Positions 2,240-26,379 of a stretch of DNA of 64,000 nucleotides are shown one piece after another. Origin of the DNA: Strigamia acuminata (lineage: Eukaryota > Arthropoda > Chilopoda > Geophilomorpha > Linotaeniidae). Position 1 is the stretch's first letter, and each line of letters begins with the position of its first letter. Made by a program: the position numbers and the translations under genes. The DNA is taken from positions 15,730,517 to 15,794,516 of the forward strand of contig OX442318.1 of NCBI GenBank assembly GCA_949358305.1, in the 5' to 3' direction. The notes under the pieces are model-generated. The model was not told the origin of the DNA. It searched no databases and worked only from the letters and a program-made list of their open reading frames with translations.

Positions 2240-2605
2240 TAACGGGATAACTGAGAGAGTCGGGTGCGAGACCACGTGACCCGGAGTGTGGTTTTTGGGG
2301 GCGAGGGCCGTCCTCCGACCGCGCCGTGACGCGCCCCGGGTCGGATCAAGAGGCGACCCGGTCGGAAACCGAACCTCGGGGTTCCTCGGGGCGTGGTTTT
2401 TTGGGGACGGGGGGAGGGGGGGATTGGGTCGCGTGCTCCGACCGCGCCGCAACGCGCCGTGGGTCGGTCACCAACCTTTGTCAATATTTTATAAATTTCC
2501 ACGGAATTTCAACAATGTTTTACATAAGTCCGTCAAATCGGGCAGAAATATCCCGTACAATGTCGCTGCAATTCTGTGGAAATTTATCAGATATTGACAA
2601 AATTC
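2240..2605 (-). repeat. Foldback right arm (copy 1)
   Basis: Inverted partner of the left arm. It starts at GGGATAACTGAGAGAG and ends at GACAAAATTC. Its AT-rich end (about 2473-2605) is also a palindrome around CGGGCAGAAATATCCC. The poly-G/C tract is much shorter than in the left arm. Confidence 0.85.
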
Positions 2606-3735
2606 GGTGACGGGCGGAAGGGCGATTCCCGGGCGGAAGAGAGAGAGAGAGAGAGAAAGGGGGGACGGCCGGCGCCTACGCCGACGGGGCGCGGAGGGCG
2701 AGTGCACTGTTCACGCATGTGGGCGCGTGTGGACGCTCGATTTACTGGCGCGTTGGACAAGTCAAAAAAAATTTCCCAATGTCTGACAAAAATTCCATCG
2801 AATCACGGCAATATTTGACAACACTTGCACAGATTTTTAGCAACATTCACCGGCGAGGTCGTTGATGAACTCGCTTTACCCCGATGAATCTCGCGCGACA
2901 ACAACCCTGCGAAAATACCAAATCTCGTACGAATAATAAACACGGCGCAAACCGCACAAAAATCCACGACATAAAATCGAATGTCGTCTATCGGCACTCT
3001 CAGCATTCCCCCGGACATTTTCCGGAAGAGTTTGGTCCGGCCGGAATCCGAGGAATAGTCACTCCCAAAGTGCGGATTTTGCGGGTGCACTCGCTTCCGA
3101 AGGATAGGCAAAGCAGGCGTGCGGACGCGACGCCCGGACGCGGCCGGACGGGGACCAGTCGGCGCTTAACCTTGGGGTATGTGTGCGGATTTTGTCGGGG
3201 GCGAAAGGGTCCCGCTTTTTAACATTACGGCGGCCTATACGTTGTTTCGTTGATCGCGACTGTGATGCGGAATTTGCGGATGTTGTTTTGGCCGAGTAGT
3301 TCGTGCGACCGAGCGCGTTTTGTTCGTTGCTTTTCGGTGTTCGGTGGGTTTTGTGACCGGTCAAGGGTTTCGCTAAAACGTGGTTTTTGTGACGGGAGGG
3401 AGGGGGGATCGGTTCATGTGCTCCGAACGCGCCGCGACGCGCCGTGACTTGGGCCAAAAACGACCCGGTCGGAAACCGGGTCCCGGGCTTCGTCGAGGCG
3501 TGGTTTTTGAGAACGGGGGGAGGGGGGGATCGGGTCGCGTGCTCCGAAAGCGCCGCGACGCGCCGTGACTTGGGCCAAAAACGACCCGGTCGGAAACCGG
3601 GTCCCGGGCTTCGTCGAGGCGTGGTCCCGATCGGGACAAACTCTTCCGGAAAATGTCCGGTGGAATGTTGAGAGTGTCGATGGACGACGTTCGAGTTTAT
3701 ATCGTAAGTAAGTAAGTATCTGACAAAACTTGCAC
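2606..3735. repeat. Spacer module, copy 1
   Basis: It lies between foldback units. Contents: a GA run (2638-2658); an inverted pair at 2971-3043 and 3627-3701 sharing GGACATTTTCCGGAAGAGTTT; two direct ~120-bp repeats starting at 3379 and 3499 that contain GTGACTTGGGCCAAAAACGA; and a (GTAA) run at 3704-3718. Open frames here (for example minus 3059-3766) match no known family. Confidence 0.85.
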
Positions 3736-4117
3736 AGAATTTTGTCAACATTTGATAAATTTCCACAGAATTTAACGTTGTTTTGCTAAAACCTGCGGAA
3801 ACGTGTCTAGTCGGGCAGAAACGTCTCGTAAAATGTTGCTGAAATTCCGTGGAAATTTGTCAAAAATTGACAAAAGTTGGTGACCGACCCACATCGCGTT
3901 GCGGCGCGGTCGGAGCACGCGACCCGATCCCCCCCCCCCCCCCTCCCCCCGTCCCCAAAAAACCACGCCTCGAGGAACCCCGAGGTTCGGTTTCCGACCG
4001 GGTCGCCTCTTGATCCGACTCGGGGCGCGTCACGGCGCGGTCGGAGGACGGCCCTCGCCCCCAAAAACCACACTCCGGGTCACGTGGTCTCGCACTCGAC
4101 TTTTTCAGTTTTCCCGT
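3736..4117 (+). repeat. Foldback left arm (copy 2)
   Basis: About 380 bp whose reverse complement closely matches 6174-6539 on the far side of the core. The outer part (3736-3890) is AT-richer and is itself an imperfect palindrome: AAATTTCCACAGAATTT faces GAAATTCCGTGGAAATTT. The inner part is GC-rich and includes the poly-C tract and CCAAAAAACCACGCC. I judge arm identity by eye at about 85-90%. Confidence 0.85.
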
Positions 4118-6173
4118 TTTCGGCCCGTTACGGCCAAGGACCGTAACGGGTCGAAAACGGGCCGCAACGGGTCGAAAACGGCCGCAACGGGTCGAAAACG
4201 GCCCGCACGGGCCGTTAACGGGCCGCCGACGGTCCCGTCACAATCCCGTAACGGCTCGCACGGGCCGTTAACGGGCCGCCGACGGTCCCGTCACGATCCC
4301 GTCACGGCCCGTGCGGGCCGTTAACGGGCTGCCGACGGTCCCGTCACGATCCCGTCACGGCTCGTGCGGGCCGTTAACGGGCCGCCGACGGTCCCGTCAC
4401 GATCCCGTCACGGCCCGTGCGGGCCGTTAACGGGCTGCCGACGGTCCCGTCACGATCCCGTCAACGGCCCGCATGGAGTCGTACGGGCCGTTAACGGGCT
4501 GCCGACGGTCCCGTCACGATCCCGTCACGGCTCGTGCGGGCCGTTAACGGGCCGCCGACAGTCCCGTCACGATCCCGTCACGGCCTGTGCGGGCCGTTAA
4601 CGGGCCGTTAACGGGCCGTTAACGGCCCGTTAACGGCGTAAAACCAAAAACAGGATTCGAGATTAATGTCTATGAATGTTGTACGCGTTTTCACGTACGT
4701 GTTGTCGGTTGTTGATTTTTTCGATTTACGCCGTAACGGCCCGTTAACGGCCCGTTAACGGCCCGTCAACGGCCCGTCAACGGCCCGCAACGGCCCGCAC
4801 GGGCCGTTAACGGGCCGTCGACGATCCCGTCACGATCCCGCAACGGCCCGCACGGGCCGTTAACGGGCCGCCGACGGTCCCGTCACGGTCCCGTCACGGC
4901 GCGTGCGGGCCGTTAACGGGCCGCCGACAGTCCCGTCACGATCCCGTCACGGCCTTCGTTCCCGGACTTCGGCTCGCCGACGGCCCGTACGACCTCACGC
5001 GGGCCGTTAACGGGCCGTTAACGGGCCGTTAACGGCCCGTTAACGGCCCGTTAACGGCGTAAAACCAAAAACAGGATTCGAGATTAATGTCTATGAATGT
5101 TGTACGCGTTTTCATGTACGTGTTGTCGGTTGTTGATTTTTTCGATTCACGCCGTAACGGCCCGTTAACGGCCCGTTAACGGCCCGTCAACGGCCCGTCA
5201 ACGGCCCGCAACGGCCCGCACGGGCCGTTAACGGGCCGTCGACGATCCCGTCACGATCCCGCAACGGCCCGCACGGGCCGTTAACGGGCCGCTGACGGTC
5301 CCGTCACGATCCCGCAACGGCCCGCACGGGCCGTTAACGGGCCGTCGACGGTCCCGTCACGATCCCGCAACGGCCCGCACGGGCCGTTAACGGCCCGTTA
5401 ACGGCCCGTTAACGGCCCGTTAACGGGGCAAAACCGAAAACAGGATTCGAGATTAATGTCTATGAATGTTGTACGCGTTTTCATGTACGTGTTGTCGGTT
5501 GTTGATTTTTTCGATTCACGCCGTAACGGCCCGTTAACGGCCCGTTAACGGCCCGTCAACGGCCCGTCAACGGCCCGCAACGGCCCGCACGGGCCGTTAA
5601 CGGGCCGTCGACGATCCCGTCACGATCCCGCAACGGCCCGCACGGGCCGTTAACGGGCCGCCGACGGTCCCGTCACGGTCCCGTCACGGCGCGTGCGGGC
5701 CGTTAACGGGCCGCCGACAGTCCCGTCACGATCCCGTCACGGCCTTCGTTCCCGGACTTCGGCTCGCCGACGGCCCGTACGACCTCACGCGGGCCGTTAA
5801 CGGGCCGTTAACGGGCCGTTAACGGCCCGTTAACGGCCCGTTAACGGCGTAAAACCAAAAACAGGATTCGAGATTAATGTCTATGAATGTTGTACGCGTT
5901 TTCACGTACGTGTTGTCGGTTGTTGATTTTTTCGATTTACGCCGTTAACGGCCCGTTAACGGCCCGTTAACGGCCCGTCAACGGCCCGCATGGAGTCGTA
6001 CGGGCCGTTAACGGGCCGCCGACGGTCCCGTCACGGTCCCGTCACGGCGCGTGCGGGCCGTTAACGGGCCGCCAACGGTCCCGTCACGATCCCGTCACGG
6101 CCCGTGCGGGCCGTTAACGGGCCGCCGACGGTCCCGTCACGATCCCGTAACGGCCCGTTACGGCCAAGGGCCG
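4118..6173. repeat. Minisatellite core, copy 2
   Basis: Same as the copy 1 core (+3934), with four islands. Confidence 0.92.
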
Positions 6174-6539
6174 TAACGGGATAACTGAGAGAGTCGGGTG
6201 CGAGACCACGTGACCCGGAGTGTGGTTTTTGGGGGCGAGGGCCGTCCTCCGACCGCGCCGTGACGCGCCCCGGGTCGGATCAAGAGGCGACCCGGTCGGA
6301 AACCGAACCTCGGGGTTCCTCGGGGCGTGGTTTTTTGGGGACGGGGGGAGGGGGGGATTGGGTCGCGTGCTCCGACCGCGCCGCAACGCGCCGTGGGTCG
6401 GTCACCAACCTTTGTCAATATTTTATAAATTTCCACGGAATTTCAACAATGTTTTACATAAGTCCGTCAAATCGGGCAGAAATATCCCGTACAATGTCGC
6501 TGCAATTCTGTGGAAATTTATCAGATATTGACAAAATTC
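6174..6539 (-). repeat. Foldback right arm (copy 2)
   Basis: Same as 2240-2605, offset +3934. Confidence 0.85.
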
Positions 6540-7669
6540 GGTGACGGGCGGAAGGGCGATTCCCGGGCGGAAGAGAGAGAGAGAGAGAGAAAGGGGGGAC
6601 GGCCGGCGCCTACGCCGACGGGGCGCGGAGGGCGAGTGCACTGTTCACGCATGTGGGCGCGTGTGGACGCTCGATTTACTGGCGCGTTGGACAAGTCAAA
6701 AAAAATTTCCCAATGTCTGACAAAAATTCCATCGAATCACGGCAATATTTGACAACACTTGCACAGATTTTTAGCAACATTCACCGGCGAGGTCGTTGAT
6801 GAACTCGCTTTACCCCGATGAATCTCGCGCGACAACAACCCTGCGAAAATACCAAATCTCGTACGAATAATAAACACGGCGCAAACCGCACAAAAATCCA
6901 CGACATAAAATCGAATGTCGTCTATCGGCACTCTCAGCATTCCCCCGGACATTTTCCGGAAGAGTTTGGTCCGGCCGGAATCCGAGGAATAGTCACTCCC
7001 AAAGTGCGGATTTTGCGGGTGCACTCGCTTCCGAAGGATAGGCAAAGCAGGCGTGCGGACGCGACGCCCGGACGCGGCCGGACGGGGACCAGTCGGCGCT
7101 TAACCTTGGGGTATGTGTGCGGATTTTGTCGGGGGCGAAAGGGTCCCGCTTTTTAACATTACGGCGGCCTATACGTTGTTTCGTTGATCGCGACTGTGAT
7201 GCGGAATTTGCGGATGTTGTTTTGGCCGAGTAGTTCGTGCGACCGAGCGCGTTTTGTTCGTTGCTTTTCGGTGTTCGGTGGGTTTTGTGACCGGTCAAGG
7301 GTTTCGCTAAAACGTGGTTTTTGTGACGGGAGGGAGGGGGGATCGGTTCATGTGCTCCGAACGCGCCGCGACGCGCCGTGACTTGGGCCAAAAACGACCC
7401 GGTCGGAAACCGGGTCCCGGGCTTCGTCGAGGCGTGGTTTTTGAGAACGGGGGGAGGGGGGGATCGGGTCGCGTGCTCCGAAAGCGCCGCGACGCGCCGT
7501 GACTTGGGCCAAAAACGACCCGGTCGGAAACCGGGTCCCGGGCTTCGTCGAGGCGTGGTCCCGATCGGGACAAACTCTTCCGGAAAATGTCCGGTGGAAT
7601 GTTGAGAGTGTCGATGGACGACGTTCGAGTTTATATCGTAAGTAAGTAAGTATCTGACAAAACTTGCAC
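6540..7669. repeat. Spacer module, copy 2
   Basis: Same as 2606-3735, offset +3934. No gene seen. Confidence 0.85.
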
Positions 7670-8051
7670 AGAATTTTGTCAACATTTGATAAATTTCCAC
7701 AGAATTTAACGTTGTTTTGCTAAAACCTGCGGAAACGTGTCTAGTCGGGCAGAAACGTCTCGTAAAATGTTGCTGAAATTCCGTGGAAATTTGTCAAAAA
7801 TTGACAAAAGTTGGTGACCGACCCACATCGCGTTGCGGCGCGGTCGGAGCACGCGACCCGATCCCCCCCCCCCCCCCTCCCCCCGTCCCCAAAAAACCAC
7901 GCCTCGAGGAACCCCGAGGTTCGGTTTCCGACCGGGTCGCCTCTTGATCCGACTCGGGGCGCGTCACGGCGCGGTCGGAGGACGGCCCTCGCCCCCAAAA
8001 ACCACACTCCGGGTCACGTGGTCTCGCACTCGACTTTTTCAGTTTTCCCGT
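7670..8051 (+). repeat. Foldback left arm (copy 3)
   Basis: Same arm as at 3736-4117, offset +3934, with a 15-C tract. Confidence 0.85.
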
Positions 8052-10270
8052 TTTCGGCCCGTTACGGCCAAGGACCGTAACGGGTCGAAAACGGGCCGCA
8101 ACGGGTCGAAAACGGCCGCAACGGGTCGAAAACGGCCCGCACGGGCCGTTAACGGGCCGCCGACGGTCCCGTCACAATCCCGTAACGGCTCGCACGGGCC
8201 GTTAACGGGCCGCCGACGGTCCCGTCACGATCCCGTCACGGCCCGTGCGGGCCGTTAACGGGCTGCCGACGGTCCCGTCACGATCCCGTCACGGCTCGTG
8301 CGGGCCGTTAACGGGCCGCCGACGGTCCCGTCACGATCCCGTCACGGCCCGTGCGGGCCGTTAACGGGCTGCCGACGGTCCCGTCACGATCCCGTCAACG
8401 GCCCGCATGGAGTCGTACGGGCCGTTAACGGGCTGCCGACGGTCCCGTCACGATCCCGTCACGGCTCGTGCGGGCCGTTAACGGGCCGCCGACAGTCCCG
8501 TCACGATCCCGTCACGGCCTGTGCGGGCCGTTAACGGGCCGTTAACGGGCCGTTAACGGCCCGTTAACGGCGTAAAACCAAAAACAGGATTCGAGATTAA
8601 TGTCTATGAATGTTGTACGCGTTTTCACGTACGTGTTGTCGGTTGTTGATTTTTTCGATTTACGCCGTAACGGCCCGTTAACGGCCCGTTAACGGCCCGT
8701 CAACGGCCCGTCAACGGCCCGCAACGGCCCGCACGGGCCGTTAACGGGCCGTCGACGATCCCGTCACGATCCCGCAACGGCCCGCACGGGCCGTTAACGG
8801 GCCGCTGACGGTCCCGTCACGATCCCGTCACGGCCTTCGTTCCCGGACTTCGGCTCGCCGACGGCCCGTACGACCTCACGCGGGCCGTTAACGGGCCGTT
8901 AACGGCCCGTTAACGGCCCGTTAACGGCGTAAAACCAAAAACAGGATTCGAGATTAATGTCTATGAATGTTGTACGCGTTTTCATGTACGTGTTGTCGGT
9001 TGTTGATTTTTTCGATTCACGCCGTAACGGCCCGTTAACGGCCCGTTAACGGCCCGTCAACGGCCCGTCAACGGCCCGCAACGGCCCGCACGGGCCGTTA
9101 ACGGGCCGTCGACGATCCCGTCACGATCCCGCAACGGCCCGCACGGGCCGTTAACGGGCCGCTGACGGTCCCGTCACGATCCCGCAACGGCCCGCACGGG
9201 CCGTTAACGGGCCGTCGACGATCCCGTCACGATCCCGCAACGGCCCGCACGGGCCGTTAACGGGCCGCTGACGGTCCCGTCACGATCCCGCAACGGCCCG
9301 CACGGGCCGTTAACGGGCCGTCGACGGTCCCGTCACGATCCCGCAACGGCCCGCACGGGCCGTTAACGGCCCGTTAACGGCCCGTTAACGGCCCGTTAAC
9401 GGGGCAAAACCGAAAACAGGATTCGAGATTAATGTCTATGAATGTTGTACGCGTTTTCATGTACGTGTTGTCGGTTGTTGATTTTTTCGATTCACGCCGT
9501 AACGGCCCGTTAACGGCCCGTTAACGGCCCGTCAACGGCCCGTCAACGGCCCGCAACGGCCCGCACGGGCCGTTAACGGGCCGTCGACGATCCCGTCACG
9601 ATCCCGCAACGGCCCGCACGGGCCGTTAACGGGCCGCCGACGGTCCCGTCACGGTCCCGTCACGGCGCGTGCGGGCCGTTAACGGGCCGCCGACAGTCCC
9701 GTCACGATCCCGTCACGGCCTTCGTTCCCGGACTTCGGCTCGCCGACGGCCCGTACGACCTCACGCGGGCCGTTAACGGGCCGTTAACGGGCCGTTAACG
9801 GCCCGTTAACGGCCCGTTAACGGCGTAAAACCAAAAACAGGATTCGAGATTAATGTCTATGAATGTTGTACGCGTTTTCATGTACGTGTTGTCGGTTGTT
9901 GATTTTTTCGATTCACGCCGTAACGGCCCGTTAACGGCCCGTTAACGGCCCGTCAACGGCCCGTCAACGGCCCGCAACGGCCCGCACGGGCCGTTAACGG
10001 GCCGTCGACGATCCCGTCACGATCCCGCAACGGCCCGCACGGGCCGTTAACGGGCCGCTGACGGTCCCGTCACGATCCCGCAACGGCCCGCACGGGCCGT
10101 TAACGGGCCGTCGACGGTCCCGTCACGATCCCGCAACGGCCCGCACGGGCCGTTAACGGCCCGTTAACGGCCCGTTAACGGCCCGTTAACGGGGCAAAAC
10201 CGAAAACAGGATTCGAGATTAATGTCTATGAATGTTGTACGCGTTTTCATGTACGTGTTGTCGGTTGTTG
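8052..10270. repeat. Minisatellite core, copy 3, first part
   Basis: Same motifs with five islands (about 8568, 8928, 9404, 9825 and 10195). The last is split by copia-1 inside GTTGATTTTTTCGATT. An extra run of alternating GTCGACGATCC and CTGACGGTCC motifs at about 9100-9350 lengthens this core relative to copies 1 and 2. Confidence 0.92.
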
Positions 10271-10275
10271 ATTTT
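10271..10275. other. Target-site duplication ATTTT (copia-1, left)
   Basis: Matches 16663-16667. The intact target GATTTTTTCG is present in the other islands, which confirms the insertion point. Confidence 0.9.
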
Positions 10276-10536
10276 TGTTGAAAGTATGGATTGATGAACA
10301 AATTCCAGGCCAAAAGTGAGTAAAAGAACAAGATTTAATCATCTCATGCAAGCATGAGAACAAGTAAAAACAACAGTTGCCAAGCAGTTAAAAAACAACT
10401 CCAACTACGGTAACCCAATTGATACATCAATGTTTACATGATAATAAACTATAAAATCATAAATAATTACAAATCAAACATGTGTAACATCAATAATCAA
10501 TTGCATATCACAAATCTCGGAGAACAAAAGCCAACA
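10276..10536 (-). repeat. Copia-1 3' LTR
   Basis: 261 bp, the downstream LTR in element orientation. It appears identical to 16402-16662. It is AT-rich, in sharp contrast to its GC-rich surroundings. TG...CA ends are present on either strand. Confidence 0.95.
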
Positions 10537-10549
10537 GAGCCCCCCATTC
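10537..10549 (-). other. Copia-1 polypurine tract
   Basis: The minus strand reads GAATGGGGGGCTC directly before the 3' LTR, the expected position for plus-strand priming. The run of six G is the likely core. Confidence 0.7.
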
Positions 10550-10603
10550 TCCGAGACATGACTCAATCATATAACAAGATATAACAAAAGTAAATGCGAA
10601 AAC
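10550..10603 (-). other. Copia-1 3' untranslated segment
   Basis: A short non-coding segment between the Gag-Pol stop and the polypurine tract. No further frame such as env is present, as usual for copia. Confidence 0.7.
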
Positions 10604-13600
10604 CTATCGCAAACTACTGTAAAAATGTTGACATAAATATCGAATGCGGGCGGGCGAGAAAAATTTTGTGAAGATGTCCGCAGGGTTTAATTCACCTGAA
10701 ACTTTCCTCAAAACAAAAACACCCTCATTTAGCCAATCCCGCAGGAAAAAGAATTTCACGTCAATGTGCTTTGTCCTCCGATTCTCTATATCGTTGCGGG
10801 TGAAAAAAATCGTCGACAGAGAATCAGAGAACATGGTTGGGGCCGGAAGTTGAAAAATCCGGGTCCGCTCAATCGCACCATGAAGCCAGACAATTTCCTT
10901 TGCACCGTCCAAAAGCGCTAGGAATTCCGCTTCCATAATGGACAAGGCGCAATAGCGTTGCTTACAGCAACCCCAGGAAATGGGAACCCCGAACACCGAA
11001 ATTGTATAACCTCCGAAGCTCTTTCTTGTATCTCGATCTGAGATCCAAGAAGCATCGGAGTGCCCCGATAGAATATCTCCAGTGACCGCGGAAAGCTGAA
11101 TTGAATATTCCCGCGTATTCTTCACATACTGGAGGATCTGTAGCAAAAGGGCCACGTGCCTTCCAGTGAAACACGTGTTATATTGCGACATAAGAATAAC
11201 TGGAAAGAGGATATCGGGACGCGTTCGAGAAGCTAGAAAGAGCAGAGACCCAATAAGAGACCGATATGGGAATTCATCATCCCTCAAAACACGTTCACCA
11301 TCTCTAGCACAATTGACCATCGTGCCTACGGCAATCGGGACTTTGCACAAATGCTCGGAGGAAATTCCGTAGTCCTCAGCAATTCTATCAATGTAATCTC
11401 GCTGATGGATGCAGATTTTACCACCATCGCGATCAAATTGAACGCCCAACAACTTTGATACCGGACCTAAATCTGTTATTGTGAAAATTGCACGAAGGGC
11501 CTTAACAGTTCGATCACGCGGATCTTGTCCTTTGGTGAAAAGTACCATGTCATCAACATAAACAAGGATGACAGCATCATAAGTGTTGGAAATAAATACG
11601 CCATTAATCCCAAGAAGCTTGTGGAAATTAATCCCTAGCAAAGCCTCAACTAGGCGGAAATTCCATTGCCGTCCGCTCTGATGAAGGCCGTAAAGGGCCT
11701 TATGAAGCCTCCATACCTTACCGGCATTCTGAGGAGTTTCCCAGCCCTTAGGAATTCTCATGAAGATAGCTTCATCTAAGTTGCCATATAAATAAGCACC
11801 CTTGACATCGAGATGTGCATCTAGCCAGCCTAAAACGACTACTAGAAGCACGAAAAACAGGCGTATAAGCACATAGTTAACCACGGGACTGAAAACCTCG
11901 GAATAGTCGACTCCGAACTTTTGGCTAAAGCCCTGGGCAACCAACATCGCTCTAAAACGGCGCACGACGCCTTCTGCATCGCGCTTGATGTAGTAAACCC
12001 ATTTATTCCCCACAATGTTCACATTAGAAGGAGGTTTCTCAACCTCTTCGTAAACACCTCGCTCACGGAAGAGTGAAAGCTCTTCCTCCATGGCTTTCTG
12101 CCAATGGACACGGTCGGGACTTGCAATAGCTTCCTTATAGGTGCGAGGAACCTGGGCAAATAAGGAGTGCGCGTACCGTGGTGTAGCAGAATAGCAATCC
12201 CCTAATGCTTCATCTTCTGAAGCCGTAGGACTAGGAAGAGGAAAAGCAGTTGGATCTGCCGGAGGGGGATCAACCGTGCAAACAGGCACGTTCCGGGTGC
12301 AAAAGTCAAAATTATCCCGGTCATATGCTAATCGATGATCTGCGCAATATTGCGCAACGTCAACATGACTCCGTAATCTGGTATGATCCGGGGGATAAAA
12401 ATACACATCAGTGTTTCCCATAGTCGCACCAGACTGCCGAATCACCTCGGAGCGAGTCCACTTGCCCCCCACAGCCGAAGTAGAAGGCTGAGGCTGATTT
12501 AGTGGCGAGGCAATAGTAGGTGGTGTAGGCAACGGATGCGCTTGCGCCGAAGGTCGAGTAACCACAGGCGGTGGAGGAGGAGGATAAGAAGGTGGAGGAG
12601 GATAAGAAAGCGGAGGAAGATTGGGGGGACGTTGAGGAGGAGGTGGAGGAAGAGGTGGATCGGAATCGAAATCCGAATCTAATGTCACCGATATAGCTCC
12701 CTCATCAGTTACCTCAGTACCCTCATAAAAACGAGGATGTCCCCACATGCAGTTTTCATCAAAACGAACATGCTTTGACTCAAACACTGCACGGCGCTTC
12801 GGGCACCACACGCGATAACCTCGCGTGCGCAAAGCATAGCCAACAACTACACCCGTCCAGGCTCGAGACTCGAATTTTGAACCACGGACCTGTTGTGGTA
12901 TGTGCACGAAACACCTTGACCCAATCACTTTTAAGTGCTTGAGTGGAACAGCCTTATTGTACCACAGACAATAGGGGATAAGGTTGTTCAGAGATTTATG
13001 TGGAAAGCGATTCTTGAGATAAATCATTGAAACCGCGAGCTCAGCCCACAATTCTCGAGGCAAAGACGTCATCAAAAACAAGGAACGCACGCCTTCAAAT
13101 AAGGTGCGGTTAAGGCGTTCCGCAACGCCATTCTGCTCAGGTGTATAAACATTCGTGCGCTGTGCCTTGATGCCACGCTGGAGCAAGAAATTTTCGAAAT
13201 TTTTAGAGCAAAATTCCATCCCGTTATCGGTTCTGACTGCTTTAATGCAGCCAGCCCCCCATAATGTTTCCATCCGAGCATGGAAAAGTTTAAAAACTTC
13301 AAAAACTTCCCCCTTCGTTTTCATAGGGACAACAAAGGAATAGCGAGAAAAGTCATCCACGATCGTTAATAAATAACGAGCGCCACCCACGGAAGTAGTT
13401 GGGGAATTTCCCCAAACGTCCATATGGATTAAATCCAAAGGCTTCTTACTGGAAATTCTATTCTTTGCACTCGGAAACGAGGCTCGGGTGGATTTAGAAC
13501 GAGCACACACGGCACATGCCGGAAATGCGGAAGTCGAAATATCGATTCCGGAAGCATTCGGAGATTTCGCTAAAAAGTGTAAACCTTCGGTATTAAAATG

Positions 13601-15085
13601 CCCAAATCTCCGGTGCCAAAGCTCTAAATCGGATAACTTCCCCTTCGGGGGTTTACAAGGAGGGGATAAAGCAGGTTCCTCGGCAAAAGTGACATGCCGA
13701 GCAGGCTTTATAGTCTGCGCAGAGAGGACCGGCTTGACCACTGAGGTGGCCGTAAGCGCAGGAAGCGGCGCAGATGTAGAATCTGCGGGCAAGACATGCT
13801 GAAGGGAATATAAATCATCCTTCAGTTTGGCATGCAAAAGAAATTGTTTGGCTTTGTCGGACGGATCAAAAATGGTCATTAAACCATTTGAAGCCACAAA
13901 ATGTAGTCCGGCGCGATCAATTTTTGACAAACTGACTAAATTACGCGAAAAAGCGGGGGCATGAAGAACATTATGCATTGTGACGGGAAATTCTCCTTTC
14001 GCGCCACCACGACCAATCCGCAAAACCACGTCACCTATACCATCAACTCGTGAACGGCCTTCACCCAAAATGATGAAATAATTCGAAACGGGCTTGTACG
14101 TCGAAAAAGAATCACGACGGCAACACACGTGATCAGATGAACCCGAATCAATTAGCCATTCCAAAGACGAAGTCGATGCGACGTTGGATTCTGACCGTGC
14201 AAAGAAACCTAAACCGGACCTTGCACTTGAAACACTTTGAGCACTCGGGGCAGGTGGTGTTGCATTACCGCGTCCACTTTTGCGGTTCCGAGACGAAGAT
14301 CGGCGACCACGATTGGTAGACGAGTTGGAAGAGGCAACGCCCTGGACTCGAGGTTTGGGGCACTTGTTCGCATAGTGTCCCATTTCCTTGCAATTAAAGC
14401 ACTGAATTTGTGACAAGGGCTTGAAAACTCTCGTCGGTGCACTCGAAGACGAACTCGCTGACTGTAAACTAGTCGATGACCCCGAATCTGCATTCTTCAT
14501 CTTCAAACGATTAAATTCGGAGAGAAGATGGTCGGAGACTCCCTTTAATGTGAAATCCGCTTTGGACCAATGGTAAATTGTTTGCACGGTCGCCTCGTAT
14601 GAATCCGGTAACAAATCCAAAAGTTGATAAGCGACATCCGAATCTGAAAATGTAACTTCCAAGTCCTTTAAAACTGCACGGGCTTTGGTGACACGGCTAA
14701 TGAAAACTGACATGTCTTCATTCGGAAGTAAACGCATCATCAGGAAATCTCGGCGGAGTTTAGCAATTCGGGCAAGAGAAGTCGGCTGAAATGTCGCTTT
14801 CAAGGCTACCCAGGCGTCACGTGCGGAGTCCGCAGCAAGAACAATGTCCTGATATTGGGACTCGACAAACAAGCCAAGCAAGGCTTTTGCACGCTTTGAA
14901 CGGTCGTCGTGAAGCTGTTTTCGAGGCTGATTCCAGGCTTCGTCTCTGACCGGAGGATTCTCTGAGATGAAATCATCTACTCCTTTTTCCAAGAGCAAAA
15001 ATTGGATATTTCGGGACCAAGATTCGTAGTTATCAGAGTTCAGTCGTGGAATTGAAAATTGGTGAGATTTGCCGGAATCCGCCAT
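10604..15085 (-). CDS. Copia-1 Gag-Pol polyprotein (1493 aa) with embedded MBD
   Basis: One frame encodes all retrotransposition functions. Residues 1-200 are a UBN2-type copia Gag. A CCHC zinc knuckle uses C229, C232, H237 and C242. Protease has D313-S-G. Integrase has the HHCC finger (H491, H496, C524, C527) and the catalytic triad D556, D620, E656 with D,D35E spacing. A proline-rich linker (about 810-860) precedes an MBD (about 872-935). Reverse transcriptase has D1093 and YVDD at 1176-1179. RNase H has D1344, E1385 and D1421, and the usual TKHID signature follows. The start has a good context (GTCATGG) and the stop is TAG. No frameshift or missing catalytic residue was seen. Gag and Pol share one frame, so any excess of Gag must arise by processing or splicing. 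Activity is inferred only. Confidence 0.96.
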   Translation of the reverse strand: MADSGKSHQFSIPRLNSDNYESWSRNIQFLLLEKGVDDFISENPPVRDEAWNQPRKQLHDDRSKRAKALLGLFVESQYQDIVLAADSARDAWVALKATFQPTSLARIAKLRRDFLMMRLLPNEDMSVFISRVTKARAVLKDLEVTFSDSDVAYQLLDLLPDSYEATVQTIYHWSKADFTLKGVSDHLLSEFNRLKMKNADSGSSTSLQSASSSSSAPTRVFKPLSQIQCFNCKEMGHYANKCPKPRVQGVASSNSSTNRGRRSSSRNRKSGRGNATPPAPSAQSVSSARSGLGFFARSESNVASTSSLEWLIDSGSSDHVCCRRDSFSTYKPVSNYFIILGEGRSRVDGIGDVVLRIGRGGAKGEFPVTMHNVLHAPAFSRNLVSLSKIDRAGLHFVASNGLMTIFDPSDKAKQFLLHAKLKDDLYSLQHVLPADSTSAPLPALTATSVVKPVLSAQTIKPARHVTFAEEPALSPPCKPPKGKLSDLELWHRRFGHFNTEGLHFLAKSPNASGIDISTSAFPACAVCARSKSTRASFPSAKNRISSKKPLDLIHMDVWGNSPTTSVGGARYLLTIVDDFSRYSFVVPMKTKGEVFEVFKLFHARMETLWGAGCIKAVRTDNGMEFCSKNFENFLLQRGIKAQRTNVYTPEQNGVAERLNRTLFEGVRSLFLMTSLPRELWAELAVSMIYLKNRFPHKSLNNLIPYCLWYNKAVPLKHLKVIGSRCFVHIPQQVRGSKFESRAWTGVVVGYALRTRGYRVWCPKRRAVFESKHVRFDENCMWGHPRFYEGTEVTDEGAISVTLDSDFDSDPPLPPPPPQRPPNLPPLSYPPPPSYPPPPPPVVTRPSAQAHPLPTPPTIASPLNQPQPSTSAVGGKWTRSEVIRQSGATMGNTDVYFYPPDHTRLRSHVDVAQYCADHRLAYDRDNFDFCTRNVPVCTVDPPPADPTAFPLPSPTASEDEALGDCYSATPRYAHSLFAQVPRTYKEAIASPDRVHWQKAMEEELSLFRERGVYEEVEKPPSNVNIVGNKWVYYIKRDAEGVVRRFRAMLVAQGFSQKFGVDYSEVFSPVVNYVLIRLFFVLLVVVLGWLDAHLDVKGAYLYGNLDEAIFMRIPKGWETPQNAGKVWRLHKALYGLHQSGRQWNFRLVEALLGINFHKLLGINGVFISNTYDAVILVYVDDMVLFTKGQDPRDRTVKALRAIFTITDLGPVSKLLGVQFDRDGGKICIHQRDYIDRIAEDYGISSEHLCKVPIAVGTMVNCARDGERVLRDDEFPYRSLIGSLLFLASRTRPDILFPVILMSQYNTCFTGRHVALLLQILQYVKNTREYSIQLSAVTGDILSGHSDASWISDRDTRKSFGGYTISVFGVPISWGCCKQRYCALSIMEAEFLALLDGAKEIVWLHGAIERTRIFQLPAPTMFSDSLSTIFFTRNDIENRRTKHIDVKFFFLRDWLNEGVFVLRKVSGELNPADIFTKFFSPARIRYLCQHFYSSLR
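12281..12472 (-). other. MBD region of the copia-1 polyprotein (residues ~872-935)
   Basis: The segment between integrase and reverse transcriptase follows the methyl-CpG-binding domain pattern W...R-x-SG...DVY...LRS...FDF. W876, R883, D893, Y895 and R905 occupy the places of MeCP2 W104, R111, D121, Y123 and R133 with exactly the same spacing (7, 10, 2 and 10 residues). These include the residues that contact methylated CpG in MeCP2. The domain is therefore likely to be able to bind methyl-CpG, although this needs a binding test. Location after integrase suits a targeting role, like the chromodomain of some Ty3/gypsy elements. Confidence 0.88.
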
Positions 15086-16389
15086 GACGATATAAGTGAG
15101 CGGTTCTGCGAAAAGTTTGGTCGAGGTGACAGGAGAACGCGCGGTATCGTTGTTCGAGGCGGAAAACCAGAATTGGACTATTCAGGTTGCTAGCCAACCC
15201 AACTAAACAGTGGCCGTTTAGGAGTTGTCGGGAAATAATGGCCCTATGGCCCCCGGATACTCCACTGTCGGGCACGGCAAATTAATACAACGGTCAAAGT
15301 GCAATGACCGAGGCAAAGATTTGTATCTGTTAGGGCAATTAAATCCACTAACAAATACAAATCCAGGATCCTACACCAGGTCCCTACCAAAAACCTTAAT
15401 CTTATACAAAGTTTCACGAAACTTAATATTTAACAAAGTTTCATGAAAAAAAATGAGGAGAATCTGGTAGAATCTCTTGGAAAACTCGATCAAAACTTCT
15501 TGAAAATCTCTGCAAATTGGTTGGCAAACTTCTGCCACTTCGTGTCTGATTTCACACGGAAATCCACGCAAAAATCGACGTAACCTGACGAAATCTGCAA
15601 AAATAAACACGAAAAAGTACATGAGAATTCAATTCAATGTTTAAAATCTTCAAAGATCTTCGAAAATCGACGACAATCTTGAAAAAAAACAGTCACAAAA
15701 TGCGTCTGCTGCTCTCGTGTTCGTAATCGACGTAACGGACACAAAAAAAATTTGAAACAAATCCCAAAGTACTCACAACACTTGTAGAAACAAGTGGAAT
15801 AATCCAGTAATCCCTGGCACAACACAGTATCGACGAAAAAGCACTAAATTCGATGAAAAGCACGTTAAAATTCGGCGAGAAGATCCTCGTGAAGCGCACG
15901 GGTATATGGCGCAAAAATAACGAAAATCGGCCCGAAAAACGTGGAAAACATGATGAAAAGTACTCACAATCGTGTGTATAAGACGTACACTGCTAAACAC
16001 AAGCAGATACTGGATGGCACAGTCAAAAACTCGATGAAATACGCGAAAATCGTCGGCGAAAATCACTCGGAATTTGGTGCATCGCGATCGGGCGAATCTG
16101 CGGCGATCATCGGCGAAAATTCACGGAAATCCATCAGGAAAAGTACCCACGATCCTTCTACAAGCTCAGGACAGTACCCACGAAAATTTGCAGCGTTCAA
16201 ATCCGTTGCAAATTGCAGAAAAAGCATCAAAATCGTCGGGTGAGCAGGCATGAAGAAACGAGGTCGGCCATTTTGCCAGGAGCGAGTAATCGATCAGCAG
16301 GATAAGATGAACGAAAATTCATGGAATTTTGACAAAAACTTGGCCAAAATTCAACATGAACAACTCACAGTGATGGAATGAACTCTAAT
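15086..16389 (-). other. Copia-1 5' leader
   Basis: About 1.3 kb between primer site and Gag start, long for a copia element. No convincing frame. It holds degenerate repeats with AGTACTCAC or AGTACCCAC on the plus strand. Read in the element's direction, three of them give GTGAGT (plus-strand positions 15771-15776, 15962-15967 and 16363-16368), resembling splice donors. It probably contains packaging signals, which I cannot place. Confidence 0.6.
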
Positions 16390-16401
16390 CCTCTGCTACC
16401 A
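16390..16401 (-). other. Copia-1 primer-binding site
   Basis: The minus strand reads TGGTAGCAGAGG immediately after the 5' LTR. It is complementary over 12 nt to the CCTCTGCTACCA end of animal initiator tRNA-Met. Plant elements usually carry TGGTATCAGAGC instead. Confidence 0.9.
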
Positions 16402-16662
16402 TGTTGAAAGTATGGATTGATGAACAAATTCCAGGCCAAAAGTGAGTAAAAGAACAAGATTTAATCATCTCATGCAAGCATGAGAACAAGTAAAAACAAC
16501 AGTTGCCAAGCAGTTAAAAAACAACTCCAACTACGGTAACCCAATTGATACATCAATGTTTACATGATAATAAACTATAAAATCATAAATAATTACAAAT
16601 CAAACATGTGTAACATCAATAATCAATTGCATATCACAAATCTCGGAGAACAAAAGCCAACA
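16402..16662 (-). repeat. Copia-1 5' LTR
   Basis: 261 bp, the upstream LTR in element orientation, directly followed by the primer-binding site. An AT-rich stretch with TTTATAG on the minus strand may serve the promoter, but I cannot place a start site. Confidence 0.95.
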
Positions 16663-16667
16663 ATTTT
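16663..16667. other. Target-site duplication ATTTT (copia-1, right)
   Basis: Second copy of the 5-bp duplication. The minisatellite resumes directly after it. Confidence 0.9.
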
Positions 16668-17331
16668 TTCGATTCACGCCGTAACGGCCCGTTAACGGCC
16701 CGTTAACGGCCCGTCAACGGCCCGTCAACGGCCCGCAACGGCCCGCACGGGCCGTTAACGGGCCGTCGACGATCCCGTCACGATCCCGCAACGGCCCGCA
16801 CGGGCCGTTAACGGGCCGCCGACGGTCCCGTCACGGTCCCGTCACGGCGCGTGCGGGCCGTTAACGGGCCGCCGACAGTCCCGTCACGATCCCGTCACGG
16901 CCTTCGTTCCCGGACTTCGGCTCGCCGACGGCCCGTACGACCTCACGCGGGCCGTTAACGGGCCGTTAACGGGCCGTTAACGGCCCGTTAACGGCCCGTT
17001 AACGGCGTAAAACCAAAAACAGGATTCGAGATTAATGTCTATGAATGTTGTACGCGTTTTCACGTACGTGTTGTCGGTTGTTGATTTTTTCGATTTACGC
17101 CGTTAACGGCCCGTTAACGGCCCGTTAACGGCCCGTCAACGGCCCGCATGGAGTCGTACGGGCCGTTAACGGGCCGCCGACGGTCCCGTCACGGTCCCGT
17201 CACGGCGCGTGCGGGCCGTTAACGGGCCGCCAACGGTCCCGTCACGATCCCGTCACGGCCCGTGCGGGCCGTTAACGGGCCGCCGACGGTCCCGTCACGA
17301 TCCCGTAACGGCCCGTTACGGCCAAGGGCCG
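16668..17331. repeat. Minisatellite core, copy 3, second part
   Basis: It resumes at TTCGATTCACGCC exactly where the island at 10195 was interrupted, and contains one more island at about 17006. Confidence 0.92.
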
Positions 17332-17697
17332 TAACGGGATAACTGAGAGAGTCGGGTGCGAGACCACGTGACCCGGAGTGTGGTTTTTGGGGGCGAGGGC
17401 CGTCCTCCGACCGCGCCGTGACGCGCCCCGGGTCGGATCAAGAGGCGACCCGGTCGGAAACCGAACCTCGGGGTTCCTCGGGGCGTGGTTTTTTGGGGAC
17501 GGGGGGAGGGGGGGATTGGGTCGCGTGCTCCGACCGCGCCGCAACGCGCCGTGGGTCGGTCACCAACCTTTGTCAATATTTTATAAATTTCCACGGAATT
17601 TCAACAATGTTTTACATAAGTCCGTCAAATCGGGCAGAAATATCCCGTACAATGTCGCTGCAATTCTGTGGAAATTTATCAGATATTGACAAAATTC
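17332..17697 (-). repeat. Foldback right arm (copy 3)
   Basis: Same as 2240-2605. It follows the second half of the core split by copia-1. Confidence 0.85.
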
Positions 17698-18827
17698 GGT
17701 GACGGGCGGAAGGGCGATTCCCGGGCGGAAGAGAGAGAGAGAGAGAGAAAGGGGGGACGGCCGGCGCCTACGCCGACGGGGCGCGGAGGGCGAGTGCACT
17801 GTTCACGCATGTGGGCGCGTGTGGACGCTCGATTTACTGGCGCGTTGGACAAGTCAAAAAAAATTTCCCAATGTCTGACAAAAATTCCATCGAATCACGG
17901 CAATATTTGACAACACTTGCACAGATTTTTAGCAACATTCACCGGCGAGGTCGTTGATGAACTCGCTTTACCCCGATGAATCTCGCGCGACAACAACCCT
18001 GCGAAAATACCAAATCTCGTACGAATAATAAACACGGCGCAAACCGCACAAAAATCCACGACATAAAATCGAATGTCGTCTATCGGCACTCTCAGCATTC
18101 CCCCGGACATTTTCCGGAAGAGTTTGGTCCGGCCGGAATCCGAGGAATAGTCACTCCCAAAGTGCGGATTTTGCGGGTGCACTCGCTTCCGAAGGATAGG
18201 CAAAGCAGGCGTGCGGACGCGACGCCCGGACGCGGCCGGACGGGGACCAGTCGGCGCTTAACCTTGGGGTATGTGTGCGGATTTTGTCGGGGGCGAAAGG
18301 GTCCCGCTTTTTAACATTACGGCGGCCTATACGTTGTTTCGTTGATCGCGACTGTGATGCGGAATTTGCGGATGTTGTTTTGGCCGAGTAGTTCGTGCGA
18401 CCGAGCGCGTTTTGTTCGTTGCTTTTCGGTGTTCGGTGGGTTTTGTGACCGGTCAAGGGTTTCGCTAAAACGTGGTTTTTGTGACGGGAGGGAGGGGGGA
18501 TCGGTTCATGTGCTCCGAACGCGCCGAGACGCGCCGTGACTTGGGCCAAAAACGACCCGGTCGGAAACCGGGTCCCGGGCTTCGTCGAGGCGTGGTTTTT
18601 GAGAACGGGGGGAGGGGGGGATCGGGTCGCGTGCTCCGAAAGCGCCGCGACGCGCCGTGACTTGGGCCAAAAACGACCCGGTCGGAAACCGGGTCCCGGG
18701 CTTCGTCGAGGCGTGGTCCCGATCGGGACAAACTCTTCCGGAAAATGTCCGGTGGAATGTTGAGAGTGTCGATGGACGACGTTCGAGTTTATATCGTAAG
18801 TAAGTAAGTATCTGACAAAACTTGCAC
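17698..18827. repeat. Spacer module, copy 3
   Basis: Same as 2606-3735 with a private C to A change near 18536. No gene seen. Confidence 0.85.
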
Positions 18828-19210
18828 AGAATTTTGTCAACATTTGATAAATTTCCACAGAATTTAACGTTGTTTTGCTAAAACCTGCGGAAACGTGTCT
18901 AGTCGGGCAGAAACGTCTCGTAAAATGTTGCTGAAATTCCGTGGAAATTTGTCAAAAATTGACAAAAGTTGGTGACCGACCCACATCGCGTTGCGGCGCG
19001 GTCGGAGCACGCGACCCGATCCCCCCCCCCCCCCCCTCCCCCCGTCCCCAAAAAACCACGCCTCGAGGAACCCCGAGGTTCGGTTTCCGACCGGGTCGCC
19101 TCTTGATCCGACTCGGGGCGCGTCACGGCGCGGTCGGAGGACGGCCCTCGCCCCCAAAAACCACACTCCGGGTCACGTGGTCTCGCACTCGACTTTTTCA
19201 GTTTTCCCGT
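18828..19210 (+). repeat. Foldback left arm (copy 4)
   Basis: Same arm as at 3736-4117 with one extra C in the poly-C tract. Confidence 0.85.
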
Positions 19211-19711
19211 TTTCGGCCCGTTACGGCCAAGGACCGTAACGGGTCGAAAACGGGCCGCAACGGGTCGAAAACGGCCGCAACGGGTCGAAAACGGCCCGCA
19301 CGGGCCGTTAACGGGCCGCCGACGGTCCCGTCACAATCCCGTAACGGCTCGCACGGGCCGTTAACGGGCCGCCGACGGTCCCGTCACGATCCCGTCACGG
19401 CCCGTGCGGGCCGTTAACGGGCTGCCGACGGTCCCGTCACGATCCCGTCACGGCTCGTGCGGGCCGTTAACGGGCCGCCGACGGTCCCGTCACGATCCCG
19501 TCACGGCCCGTGCGGGCCGTTAACGGGCCGCCGACGGTCCCGTCACGATCCCGTCAACGGCCCGCATGGAGTCGTACGGGCCGTTAACGGGCTGCCGACG
19601 GTCCCGTCACGATCCCGTCACGGCTCGTGCGGGCCGTTAACGGGCCGCCGACAGTCCCGTCACGATCCCGTCACGGCCTGTGCGGGCCGTTAACGGGCCG
19701 TTAACGGGCCG
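19211..19711. repeat. Minisatellite core, copy 4, first part
   Basis: The standard start of a core up to the copia-2 target site in GGGCCGTTAAC. No AT-richer island is reached before the insertion. Confidence 0.92.
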
Positions 19712-19716
19712 TTAAC
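19712..19716. other. Target-site duplication TTAAC (copia-2, left)
   Basis: Matches 26916-26920. Confidence 0.9.
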
Positions 19717-20252
19717 TGTTGGTCAAAAGACCATTTTGTATCGATGAATACATTTGTTATTTCCTAGTTTTCCCTTTGTGTTTAGGTATACAGCGCATCT
19801 TTGTTATTATTTAATTGATTTCGATGTTACCATTCGTTTTGCGCTGTCCCGTATGTAATTCCATACTTTTATCACTTTATGCTAGGATTTGTCCTATTAT
19901 CAAATGATTTGTTCAAACTTAATGTAAATTCCCGGCACTAGGTGCCACTACCCATTGCTTTTTCATCCAAGATGGCGTCATACACAGCCGTGTATGACTT
20001 AGCTGCTTTCCCACCTGTTTGGATACCTATTTGTAATGTATTACTATTTAATTAAACCGTTTTTATTGTTTTACTCATTGTGTTTGATTTAAAGCACCTT
20101 TAGTGCTTCTTGCTAGCGCATATAAGCGGCATTAGGCCGCGCGCATTTCCGAAACGATACGCGTCGTATCGTTAACGTCTGTGCGGGTCGCACAGCGCCA
20201 ATTCACGCTTTCAATCGGTTTACACCGATATTTTGCGCATTCTCTGCCTACA
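19717..20252 (+). repeat. Copia-2 5' LTR
   Basis: 536 bp. A 9-bp hairpin with loop AGCC lies at 19977-19998. A TATAAG box at 20121-20126 is followed about 30 bp later by a perfect 9-bp inverted repeat (20153-20173), then hairpins at 20179-20195 (7 bp, loop GGT) and 20214-20229 (6 bp). Transcription probably starts near 20150, so these hairpins would be at the 5' end of the RNA. Confidence 0.95.
20121..20126 (+). promoter_or_regulatory. Copia-2 LTR TATA-like box
   Basis: TATAAG in the 5' LTR, placed correctly for starts just before the hairpin series. Confidence 0.5.
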
Positions 20253-20253
20253 T

Positions 20254-20265
20254 TGGTAGCAGAGG
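20254..20265 (+). other. Copia-2 primer-binding site
   Basis: TGGTAGCAGAGG begins 2 bp after the LTR and is complementary to the 3' end of animal initiator tRNA-Met. CTCTGC at the LTR end can pair with GCAGAG of this site, forming a U5-PBS stem. Confidence 0.9.
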
Positions 20266-21161
20266 ATGGTTGTTGGTTAAACAACCACTCCATTCGCCTA
20301 ATTTATCGACTTTTTTTCGCGAAATTCGCGAATTTGCGCCGATATTTTTATTTTCAGATTTTCGGCGGCCATTTTGTCTCGATTTTCGTCTCGCCTGCGA
20401 CGCCGACGTTTTATCGACGTTCACAGACGACCAGGGTCGTCACTCACACCATTATTTGTCTAATTTTCTCCGAAATTCCGCGGGATTCGCGAATTTCGAG
20501 AGAAATTCTTTCTTTTTGCAGATTTCACGTCGATTTTCGCTTCGCCAACGTCGAAGCGACGTTTTTCAACGAGAAACGGATCGAATTCCGCTGTGTATAC
20601 CCCGGCGTATGCACAGTATCGTCGATCTATTATTTTCCGGACGAAGAGCCTCGATTTATCGAGAAGAAATTCGGATTTTTCAATCCGAATTTGCGCTTTT
20701 TCCAGTTTTTCGAGAAAACTGCGCCGTGCCTTCATTTGCACGAGGATCGCAACCGCGATCGATTCACCTATTTCTCCTTCTGTCGAAATACTATTGTTAA
20801 TTTTAAGATATTATTAAGGCTTTTGGGGGTTCCTTTAGAATCGTGTTTGCCCTTGGATCGAGTCCGGTCAAGCTTACACGTATTCTCCGGTTGTGCTTGT
20901 CGTGGTACAAGTGAGGTTTCCCGCGGCTCCAGGAAGCCGATCGGACCCTCTCAGACTGGCAACCGGAGGTTATTTGATTCCTTCAGAAGGAATTGCCCAA
21001 TTTGTGGTTTTTCGCCTCGAACACCGAGGGAACCGTGCAGTGAAGTGCTCCGAATTGTGAAAATTGTGAAAAGTGCTCCAATCTTGTGCGACATTTCAGC
21101 GCCTCTCTCTGAGTCAGTGTGATTTTCGCGTTGTGTTACGCTCTTCGCGAATCGATCTACG
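20266..21161 (+). other. Copia-2 5' leader with a long open frame
   Basis: About 0.9 kb before Gag. A 313-codon frame (20181-21122) begins inside the LTR and ends 39 nt before the Gag ATG. Its product is rich in Phe, Arg and Ser and resembles nothing I know. The DNA has TTTTCG- and GCGAATTT-rich repeats that avoid stops, so I favour untranslated leader over a gene. Confidence 0.55.
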
Positions 21162-24100
21162 ATGCAGAAAGCGGCCAACTCGAACAGTTTAATTCCGGTT
21201 CTCGGTGTCGACAATTATGAACAATGGCGATTGTCGATGCAGTTTCTCTTAAAATCGGAAGGGCTTTGGCGTCACGTAACGGAGGATAAGGAGGCAGAGC
21301 ACATTGCCACCCTGACGCCAAAAGAACTTGATCGCTTTATGGTGAAGAAGGACAAGGCCCTAGGCCACATATACATCCATGTGAGCCCCGCCAAGCGTAC
21401 AGTTTTGGAAACCTGTAACACGCCAAAGGAGGCGTGGGACAAGTTGGCGAAAACCTACGCACCCAGCTCTAGAGCCCGTCAAGCGGCGATGCGCTGGGAG
21501 TTTCTCAGCCTCCAACTCCAACCTGGCGAAGATATGCCGGACTTCATTGCCCGCGTCGACAATTACGTGCGGCAACTAAGCGATGTCAACGAGATTATTA
21601 GCCCGGTTCACCACGCATACCAGTATTTGAAGTGTCTGCCGCCTGAATATGCTCAGGCAACATTTGCCATATACCACTGGCCGGATCCCCAATTCACGCC
21701 GAAGGATGTCGCCGAGCAGCTGATTTCCGAGCACATGCGGCTCAAATCCATCGGGTTGCTCGGAACGAGCCAATCATCAGCTCACACGTCTATGAAGGGA
21801 CAATTCCGACCCCGAAATAAATCCGGACCTCGTGATATCTCGACAGTGAAGTGTTTTAATTGCGACCAGCTCGGACATTACGCGAACCGATGTCCACGTC
21901 CACCCCGTCAACAACAGGGACAACCTACGGTTTCACTCCAACGTAATTCTCGGAGCAAGAGTCGCCGGCGCAACAAGAACGCTGCTGCGAAGGCCAACAA
22001 CGCGCGTCCCCGAGAAAGCTCGCATCCACACCGAGAGGGGACATATTTTGTCAATGCGCCGCAGGTTATCCAACGTCCAGTCGCTCATTTTATGCAATCC
22101 AATGAGTGGATTCTGGATTGCGGCGCTACAGATCACGTATCTCACGTGCGTGCCGGTTTCACCGAGTTCACCGATGTCATTCCATTCGACATCGAGTTGG
22201 GACAGGGAAAGTCCCAAGTGACGGGAAAAGGAACGGTTCGTTTGCTAATGGCGATCGATAAGACCCGGTGCACCGTGAATTTAACAAACGTCCTTTACGC
22301 GCCGAATTTCGAGGCAAACTTGATTTCGGTTTCGAAGATAGACAAGGCGCGACATCATATCCACATTTTCAATAGTGAGATACATGTTTACGAATCGGAC
22401 ATTCGCAGCCCTCTTATTCGTGCAAAGGAGAGAGGAGGTCTTTATTATGTGGACGGTTTGTGTACAAATCCGACATTTGCGACAACGGTTTCTCCCACTG
22501 TACAACCGACTCCAACGCTACCGCCGCAAATGTACGTGACTACGGAAGAGGATTTCATTAAAATTCCCAAACCGAAAAAGGGAAAAGGACAGCAACGAGA
22601 AATTACGGATTTTCGGATTGAAATGCCGCTAGTTGAACCCGTGAAGCAAATTCCCGTCCAACAAGCTCCCATTCCAACCAATCCGATTCCTCCTCCTATC
22701 CCTACTCAAATCCACAACGATTTGACCACCCTTCCTTCCTATGCGAATGCCCTACAGTCAATCCCAACGGCAACTCCTATTGCAATTCCAAATGCAAATT
22801 CCTTTCCTCCCCTTGGCAACCCGTCTCAACCTAAAAAGAAGGTCATCGCCAATCCAGCCTCCGTCAAGGACGCCACCGGCTTATGGCATAGCCGTCTTGG
22901 CCACCTTCATACGAATGGAATGAAGCTATTGGCCGCAAACGACCAAGTTTACGGAATGTCACCAGGGGAAGTGAGCAGGGAATTGGCCTGCAACGACTGC
23001 AGAATAGCCAAATCGACAAAAGCTTCTCATAAGCCTGATCCTAATCCCTCGACTACGAAGCCTTTGGACCTTCTCCACATGGATATTTGGGGGCCAGCCC
23101 CAGTTCCATCGTTTGGAGGAGCACGTTTTGTCCTTACCGTCATCGACGACGCAACACGCTATTGCTGGATTATACCGCTAGCCCAGAAATCGCAGGTTTT
23201 CGCAACCTTTAAGGACTTCGTTGCTCGAGTTGAGAGAATCCAGGACACGCAAATAAAAGCGATTCGGACTGATCGAGGCGGAGAGTTTATGTCAAACGAG
23301 TTTCTCCGATATCTACAAGCCAAGGGCATCCAAGGTCAACGGACAAATCCGTCGTCACCACAGATGAACGGCACGGCCGAGCGCATAAACCGGACAATGG
23401 CCGACAACTTTCGTGCAGTCTTATCCGAGACTAAGTTGCCGGAGGCGCTCTGGGCCGAGCTAGCGGTCACGTTTGCCTACATCAAGAATCGGAGCCCTCA
23501 TTCTCGACTTAACAATCAAGTTCCGTATATCCTTTGGCGACAGAGAGCCCTTTCGTTACGACATCTACGAAAAGTCGGTTCCAAGTGCTGGGTGCACTAC
23601 ACCGCACCAGGACGCAAGAAGCTGGATCCGCGGGCCTGGGAGGGATATTTAGTCGGCTACGCTTCAGGGACCCGTGGATACAGAATTTGGAACCCAACTG
23701 ACAACCAAGTCTACGAATCTATTCACGTTAAGATCGATGAGCGGCAGTCGTATCGGAAATCCATCAAAATTTCGACGCAGCAGCCGCAACAATCGTTTAC
23801 TGGTCCCGGACAGCAAACCGTTACATTTGATGATAACCTACATTACCATCAGTGGCCGAAAGGATCTGATTCCGAGGCGTCAGAACATTCTGCGAACGAT
23901 TCCGAACGTGTGTCGACGGCATCCGCTTCGATGCACACGCCTCTGGCTTTTCCGCACATCCACATACCACCACCGACAACTCCGGAACGGGCATTGCTGG
24001 ATTTATGTGCGACCTTACCTCCGGGTTCTGCGTCTCTTCGACAATCCCATCATATTTCATATGAAGAGGAACGTGATACGGACCACGACATCCGAGAGAT

Positions 24101-26377: not shown

Positions 26378-26379
26378 TT

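Follow-up and report, generated by a model that had tools for sequence, protein, structure and literature searches.

A recently inserted Copia element with a methyl-CpG-binding domain in CpG-dense satellite DNA of the centipede Strigamia acuminata

Can a retrotransposon that encodes a putative reader of DNA methylation use it to choose where it lands? We asked this of a 64,000-nucleotide stretch of the Strigamia acuminata genome, hereafter the window (GenBank assembly GCA_949358305.1, contig OX442318.1, positions 15,730,517 to 15,794,516), in which a Copia element, Copia-1, lies within satellite DNA. A preliminary description of the window had placed a methyl-CpG-binding domain (MBD) between the integrase and the reverse transcriptase of Copia-1, had proposed that integration is guided by the epigenome, and had named a search with the Pfam MBD profile and a structure prediction as checks.

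Copia-1 and its methyl-CpG-binding domain

Copia-1 is a Copia LTR element of 6387 bp on the minus strand (10276..16662), delimited by its LTR pair, target-site duplication (TSD) and open reading frame (ORF). Its 5' LTR (16402..16662) and 3' LTR (10276..10536), both 261 bp long and on the same strand, are 100% identical and have TG..CA termini, and the 5-bp TSD, ATTTT, was read directly at 10271..10275 and 16663..16667. Adjoining the 5' LTR is a primer-binding site read from the sequence, TGGTAGCAGAGG (16390..16401, minus strand), which we take to resemble the 3' end of initiator tRNA-Met. The gag-pol ORF (10604..15085, minus strand), taken from the ORF list, encodes 1493 aa and matches nine Pfam families, with gag (aa 28-198), Pol_BBD (310-393), the pre-integrase domain (483-532), the integrase core rve (548-649; 13139..13444), the integrase SH3-like domain (710-781; 12743..12958) and the reverse transcriptase RVT_2 (1012-1251; 11333..12052) following one another in one frame, all on the minus strand. 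This is the domain order of Copia LTR retrotransposons, namely gag, (protease), integrase and reverse transcriptase, and the protease DSG, integrase D-D-35-E and reverse transcriptase YVDD motifs were read directly in the ORF. The copy had been called intact, and its open frame, identical LTRs and 5-bp TSD agree with that description.

The MBD of Copia-1 spans aa 875-932 (12290..12463, minus strand), between the integrase SH3-like domain and the reverse transcriptase, and N-terminal to it lies a proline-rich linker, part of which is encoded by an 18-bp tandem repeat (12576..12621, minus strand) found by a repeat scan and translation. Against PF01429, we found that the segment scores 34.4 bits (E 1.7e-8), above the curated cutoff of 21; an MBD fold is predicted for it, and all five MeCP2-type contact residues are in place as W876, R883, D893, Y895 and R905. 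Both checks named at the outset therefore came out in favor of the domain, and its position and contact residues are as first described. Profile, sequence and predicted fold together rule out a chance resemblance to an MBD.

The best sequence matches are MBD1 and MBD2. The tail of the Copia MBDs is about three residues longer than that of the host MBD2/3 and of human MBD1/2, while the MeCP2 and MBD4 matches, judged by coordinates, show no such gap. Introns are absent from the Copia MBDs that were read; the host MBD2/3-like gene (L135, C5:5734321-5734579) has an intron within its MBD and carries Phe at the position of MeCP2 Tyr123, as mammalian MBD3 does. Searches for homologues in a large protein set returned five candidates, none reaching E 0.001, and 32 pattern matches in viral contigs included no relative. 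Two matches in phage records were weak (4e-3) and lay beneath an acyl-CoA dehydrogenase gene, and were taken as chance.

A second element inserted in the same satellite, Copia-2 (19717..26915, plus strand), also bears a predicted MBD, a point absent from the preliminary description. Its LTRs (19717-20252 and 26380-26915) are identical, and its TSD, TTAAC, lies at 19712-19716 and 26916-26920. The domain (aa 1085-1138; 24414..24575, plus strand) is divergent and falls under the Pfam cutoff: an 83-aa cut scored 14.9 of the 21 bits (E 0.021), the whole protein gave no MBD match at 1e-3, and cuts of 94 and 157 aa, the latter spanning the whole domain, gave none up to E 10. We identify this segment as an MBD by its alignment and predicted fold; the alignments behind the fold models of both domains combine one and the same set of 11-12 Copia MBDs, so that the Copia-2 model leans on the Copia-1 family. 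The contact set of the MBD family (two Arg fingers, Asp and Tyr) is complete in both elements, with one additional residue between the contact Arg and Asp in Copia-2, and the domain sits between integrase and reverse transcriptase in both of the full polyproteins scanned.

An MBD within a Copia polyprotein, in the interval between integrase and reverse transcriptase, is what defines CopiaMBD elements, which were reportedly found in Strigamia maritima and Stegodyphus dumicola by de Mendoza, Pflueger and Lister (Genome Res 2019, 29:1277). The precedent pointed out beforehand is right. Like these elements, Copia-1 is a Copia LTR element of an arthropod whose polyprotein includes an MBD, and its young copies lie in CpG-dense regions; it also shares the genus Strigamia with one of them. 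On the other hand, it comes from another species, belongs to a set of several subfamilies with differing contact residues, one of which lies below the Pfam cutoff, and is known here from sequence and predicted fold.

MBD subfamilies in the S. acuminata genome

When the genome (237,517,015 bases, 157 contigs) was searched with the Copia-1 and Copia-2 MBDs, each returned at least 150 matches, fragments included, and many copies among the matches listed have open frames of 1500-1690 codons. We use letters of our own for the subfamilies: A (Copia-1), A2, B (Copia-2), C, D, E, E2, F, F2, G, H and I. Among 11 tabled representatives, one copy each, all five contact residues are present in A, A2, C, E, E2, F2 and I; the contact Tyr is replaced by Val in D, G and H; and in F the contact Asp has become Phe and the Tyr has become His. 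The Val was confirmed in all six D-type copies that were read (L083-L086, L138 and L140). Copies of subfamily F include L088, L089, L097 and L098, and two F copies among the matches listed have frames of 1519 and 1525 codons.

By the Nei-Gojobori method over 53 codons, dN/dS was 0.16 for A versus A2 and 0.05-0.10 among D, G and H (dS 0.63-1.48); deeper subfamily pairs were mostly saturated. These ratios indicate that the MBD is under purifying selection in A and A2, and point to very strong constraint in D, G and H despite the lost contact Tyr. In a tree of the MBD (15 rows, 53 columns), none of the 12 forks is well supported, with D, G and H grouped at 90/88, and the Tyr to Val change looks like a single event within one clade.

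CpG density at the insertion sites

Copia-1 has inserted into a CpG-dense GC satellite with units of 3934 bp, which our repeat and CpG scans place at 1..10275. By the CpG scan the same satellite separates Copia-1 from Copia-2 (16668..19716), and a third stretch with the 3934-bp unit lies at 26916-35300. Around the two elements it holds 14-16 CpG/100 bp with an observed/expected ratio (o/e) of 1.5-1.6, and the target of Copia-1, which had been called visible, is indeed CpG-dense (15 CpG/100 bp, o/e 1.58). A 1.4-kb piece of the unit recurs at 100% identity at 40 scored places of 1325 candidates, on C1, C4, C6, C10 and small contigs, and no Rfam family reached the gathering score in the window. 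Since its CpG o/e is about 1.6, the GC satellite gives no hint of long-lasting deamination in the germline; it might lack methylation, or its homogenisation might be too recent for a deamination footprint.

Another satellite in the window, which is AT-rich (37905-63924), has CpG-poor parts with an o/e of 0.07-0.3 in 1-kb windows and raised TpG/CpA. At intervals of about 6 kb they give way to some 2 kb in which CpG is normal. The CpG-poor parts resemble what methylation of CpG would leave behind, and suggest that it occurs somewhere in the S. acuminata genome. The GC satellite also houses subfamily D on another chromosome, where the flank of one copy was read (L112, C1:47114629-47115239) and a second copy (C1:47119896) falls in the same array as judged by its position.

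Copies of subfamily A are young. In the 15 copies whose LTR pairs were compared, a set without L015 and L027, whose LTRs are broken, and without three copies in which a single LTR was found, 11 pairs had no mismatch over their full length and two more were identical across the aligned part, and the remaining two had one and four mismatches. Because these pairs are near-identical, the flanks of A reflect recent insertion, albeit after selection. Both ends were set for 17 of the fetched copies, and 12 of these have a matching 5-bp TSD; L013, L015, L021, L027 and L031 had none, in some cases owing to imprecise end setting.

We then compared 500-bp flanks with random places (median 4.17 CpG/100 bp; n=20, the first 600 bp of each of the first 20 of 40 places drawn), which came from 11 large contigs with partly guessed lengths (underestimated for C3, C4 and C9) and omit the small contigs where some copies lie. 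Subfamily A was measured in 19 of 20 fetched copies, the Copia-1 copy of the window being outside this set, and its median was 8.8 CpG/100 bp on the 5' side (n=18, p 1.8e-5 versus random) and 8.4 on the 3' side (n=17, p 2.6e-5). L015, with its 5' LTR in pieces, and one side each of L017, L030 and L032 are left out of these statistics, and the 5' flank of L013 begins about 26 bp within the LTR. Medians were 7.7 for B (n=20, p 3.7e-4), 7.1 for F (n=2, p 0.098), 6.1 for C (n=16 of 20, p 0.029; L121, L131, L133 and L134 left out, their end motif not found) and 5.4 for D (n=20, p 0.056). All flank p values are uncorrected for multiple tests, and the A, B, C and D copies were hand-chosen among the matches listed, mainly with long open frames. 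The upper quartile of the random places was exceeded by 17/18 5' and 16/17 3' flanks of A, 15/20 of B, 10/20 of D, 8/16 of C and 2/2 of F. Relative to random places, subfamily A thus represents young insertions in CpG-dense DNA, as in CopiaMBD elements.

The subfamilies differed from one another (Kruskal-Wallis for A, B, C and D, 0.0072), with A denser than D (p 6e-4) and C (p 0.038) and B denser than D (p 0.031), and with p values of 0.21 for A versus B, 0.29 for B versus C and 0.67 for C versus D. We considered whether the Tyr to Val clade proves steering of insertion by the MBD and did not accept this, because C, which keeps the Tyr, does not differ from D and because the Val change is one apparent event.

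We also scanned 40 of the 67 ORFs listed in the flanks of 18 A copies and found 12 Pfam families, in one to three frames each, with at least 26 of the 40 frames having no Pfam match. Eleven of the families are of transposon type (integrase, reverse transcriptase, gag, protease, Pao peptidase, DDE transposase and others), and the twelfth is a doubtful PEX14-like match. Some A insertions, not demonstrably most, therefore appear to fall in other transposons.

Possible roles of the domain

Together, these findings make it probable that Copia-1 belongs to the CopiaMBD elements and inserted recently, and that its MBD stays with the integrase and anchors the integration complex to DNA that is both methylated and CpG-dense. 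After cleavage of the polyprotein, the MBD would remain joined to the integrase through the proline-rich linker; it would bind methylated CpG in repeats, and insertion would then occur nearby. The targets would be the homogenised GC satellite for Copia-1 and, for other copies, CpG-dense DNA that sometimes belongs to another transposon. The insertion point of Copia-1, GATTTTTTCGATT, is a short AT stretch within a CpG-dense satellite unit, which fits tethering to a neighbourhood and not cutting at CpG. Of the epigenome-guided integration proposed in the preliminary description, the CpG-dense flanks of related copies provide indirect support; that the targets are methylated and that the MBD causes the bias we infer.

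Two findings bear this tethering model out less well, and we hold it less firmly for them: the transposon content of the A flanks, and subfamily C, whose flank bias is weak and does not differ from that of D although its contact residues are kept. In addition, part of the flank bias is GC content, with o/e differing less than CpG density, and surviving insertions are observed after selection and not at integration. The high o/e of the GC satellite and the small size of the non-MBD control described below also count against the model.

A tentative extension is that the MBDs of different MBD-Copia lineages within one genome no longer read the same thing. The full-set types, exemplified by Copia-1 and Copia-2, would go to CpG-dense methylated repeats, while D, G and H, with Tyr replaced by Val, and F, with Asp and Tyr lost, would have targeting that is differently aimed or independent of methylation, D, G and H still being strongly selected. 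We consider this possible but doubtful.

It is unlikely, on balance, that the CpG density of the flanks is unrelated to the MBD, the integrase favoring GC-rich or open DNA or insertions surviving mainly in young CpG-rich transposons and satellites. Insertions of A within other transposons would fit such a bias, as would the GC content of the flanks, which is raised about as strongly as their CpG density and is also raised for B (p 1.9e-5), C (p 0.0038) and D (p 0.015), in the last case despite a changed contact residue. However, the CpG o/e, although a weaker signal, is raised for A as well (p 0.03 and 0.019; for B p 0.083, not significant), and the few flanks measured for a young Gypsy family without an MBD, too small a control, are CpG-poor. 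Of 16 3' windows of that family, 12 were still within the element, and the four short flanks that were left (171-300 bp; three trimmed of a shared part and L153, which matches no other window, kept whole) had 0.58, 2.72, 0 and 3.0 CpG/100 bp, giving p 0.0026 versus A, 0.0059 versus D and 0.16 versus random with n=4.

Least probable, and indeed rather remote, is that the MBD serves another step, with the target bias as a by-product; it might, for example, recognize methylated copies of the element itself, attract or block silencing factors, or aid nuclear entry. The strong constraint on D, G and H, whose methyl-contact Tyr is gone, and the hardly CpG-biased flanks of D would suit this, but the placement of the domain between integrase and reverse transcriptase in both polyproteins scanned and the clearly CpG-dense flanks of A speak against it.

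The tethering model has relatives among known systems. Chromoviruses are Gypsy elements with a chromodomain near the integrase that steers insertion, and they resemble Copia-1 in having a chromatin-reader domain at this place; unlike the MBD, the chromodomain reads histone methylation and not DNA methylation. The yeast elements Ty1 and Ty5 are Copia-type, like Copia-1, and their targeting segments also lie behind the integrase core; these bind proteins (a Pol III subunit, Sir4), whereas the Copia-1 segment has the predicted fold of a DNA-binding domain. Retrotransposons that captured DNA methyltransferases were described by de Mendoza and colleagues (Nat Commun 2018). There too DNA-methylation machinery was taken up, but as writers, where Copia-1 carries a predicted reader.

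The MBD-Copia kind is already known from the sister species S. maritima, and what S. acuminata adds is a set of naturally occurring variants of the MBD whose landing sites can be measured, several of these variants being young or abundant. If the integration complex carries its own reader of DNA methylation, a silencing mark of the host could serve transposons as a landing address. With many young copies and natural changes in the contact residues, the relation between reader sequence and landing site may be tested by comparison, with nothing new having to be made.
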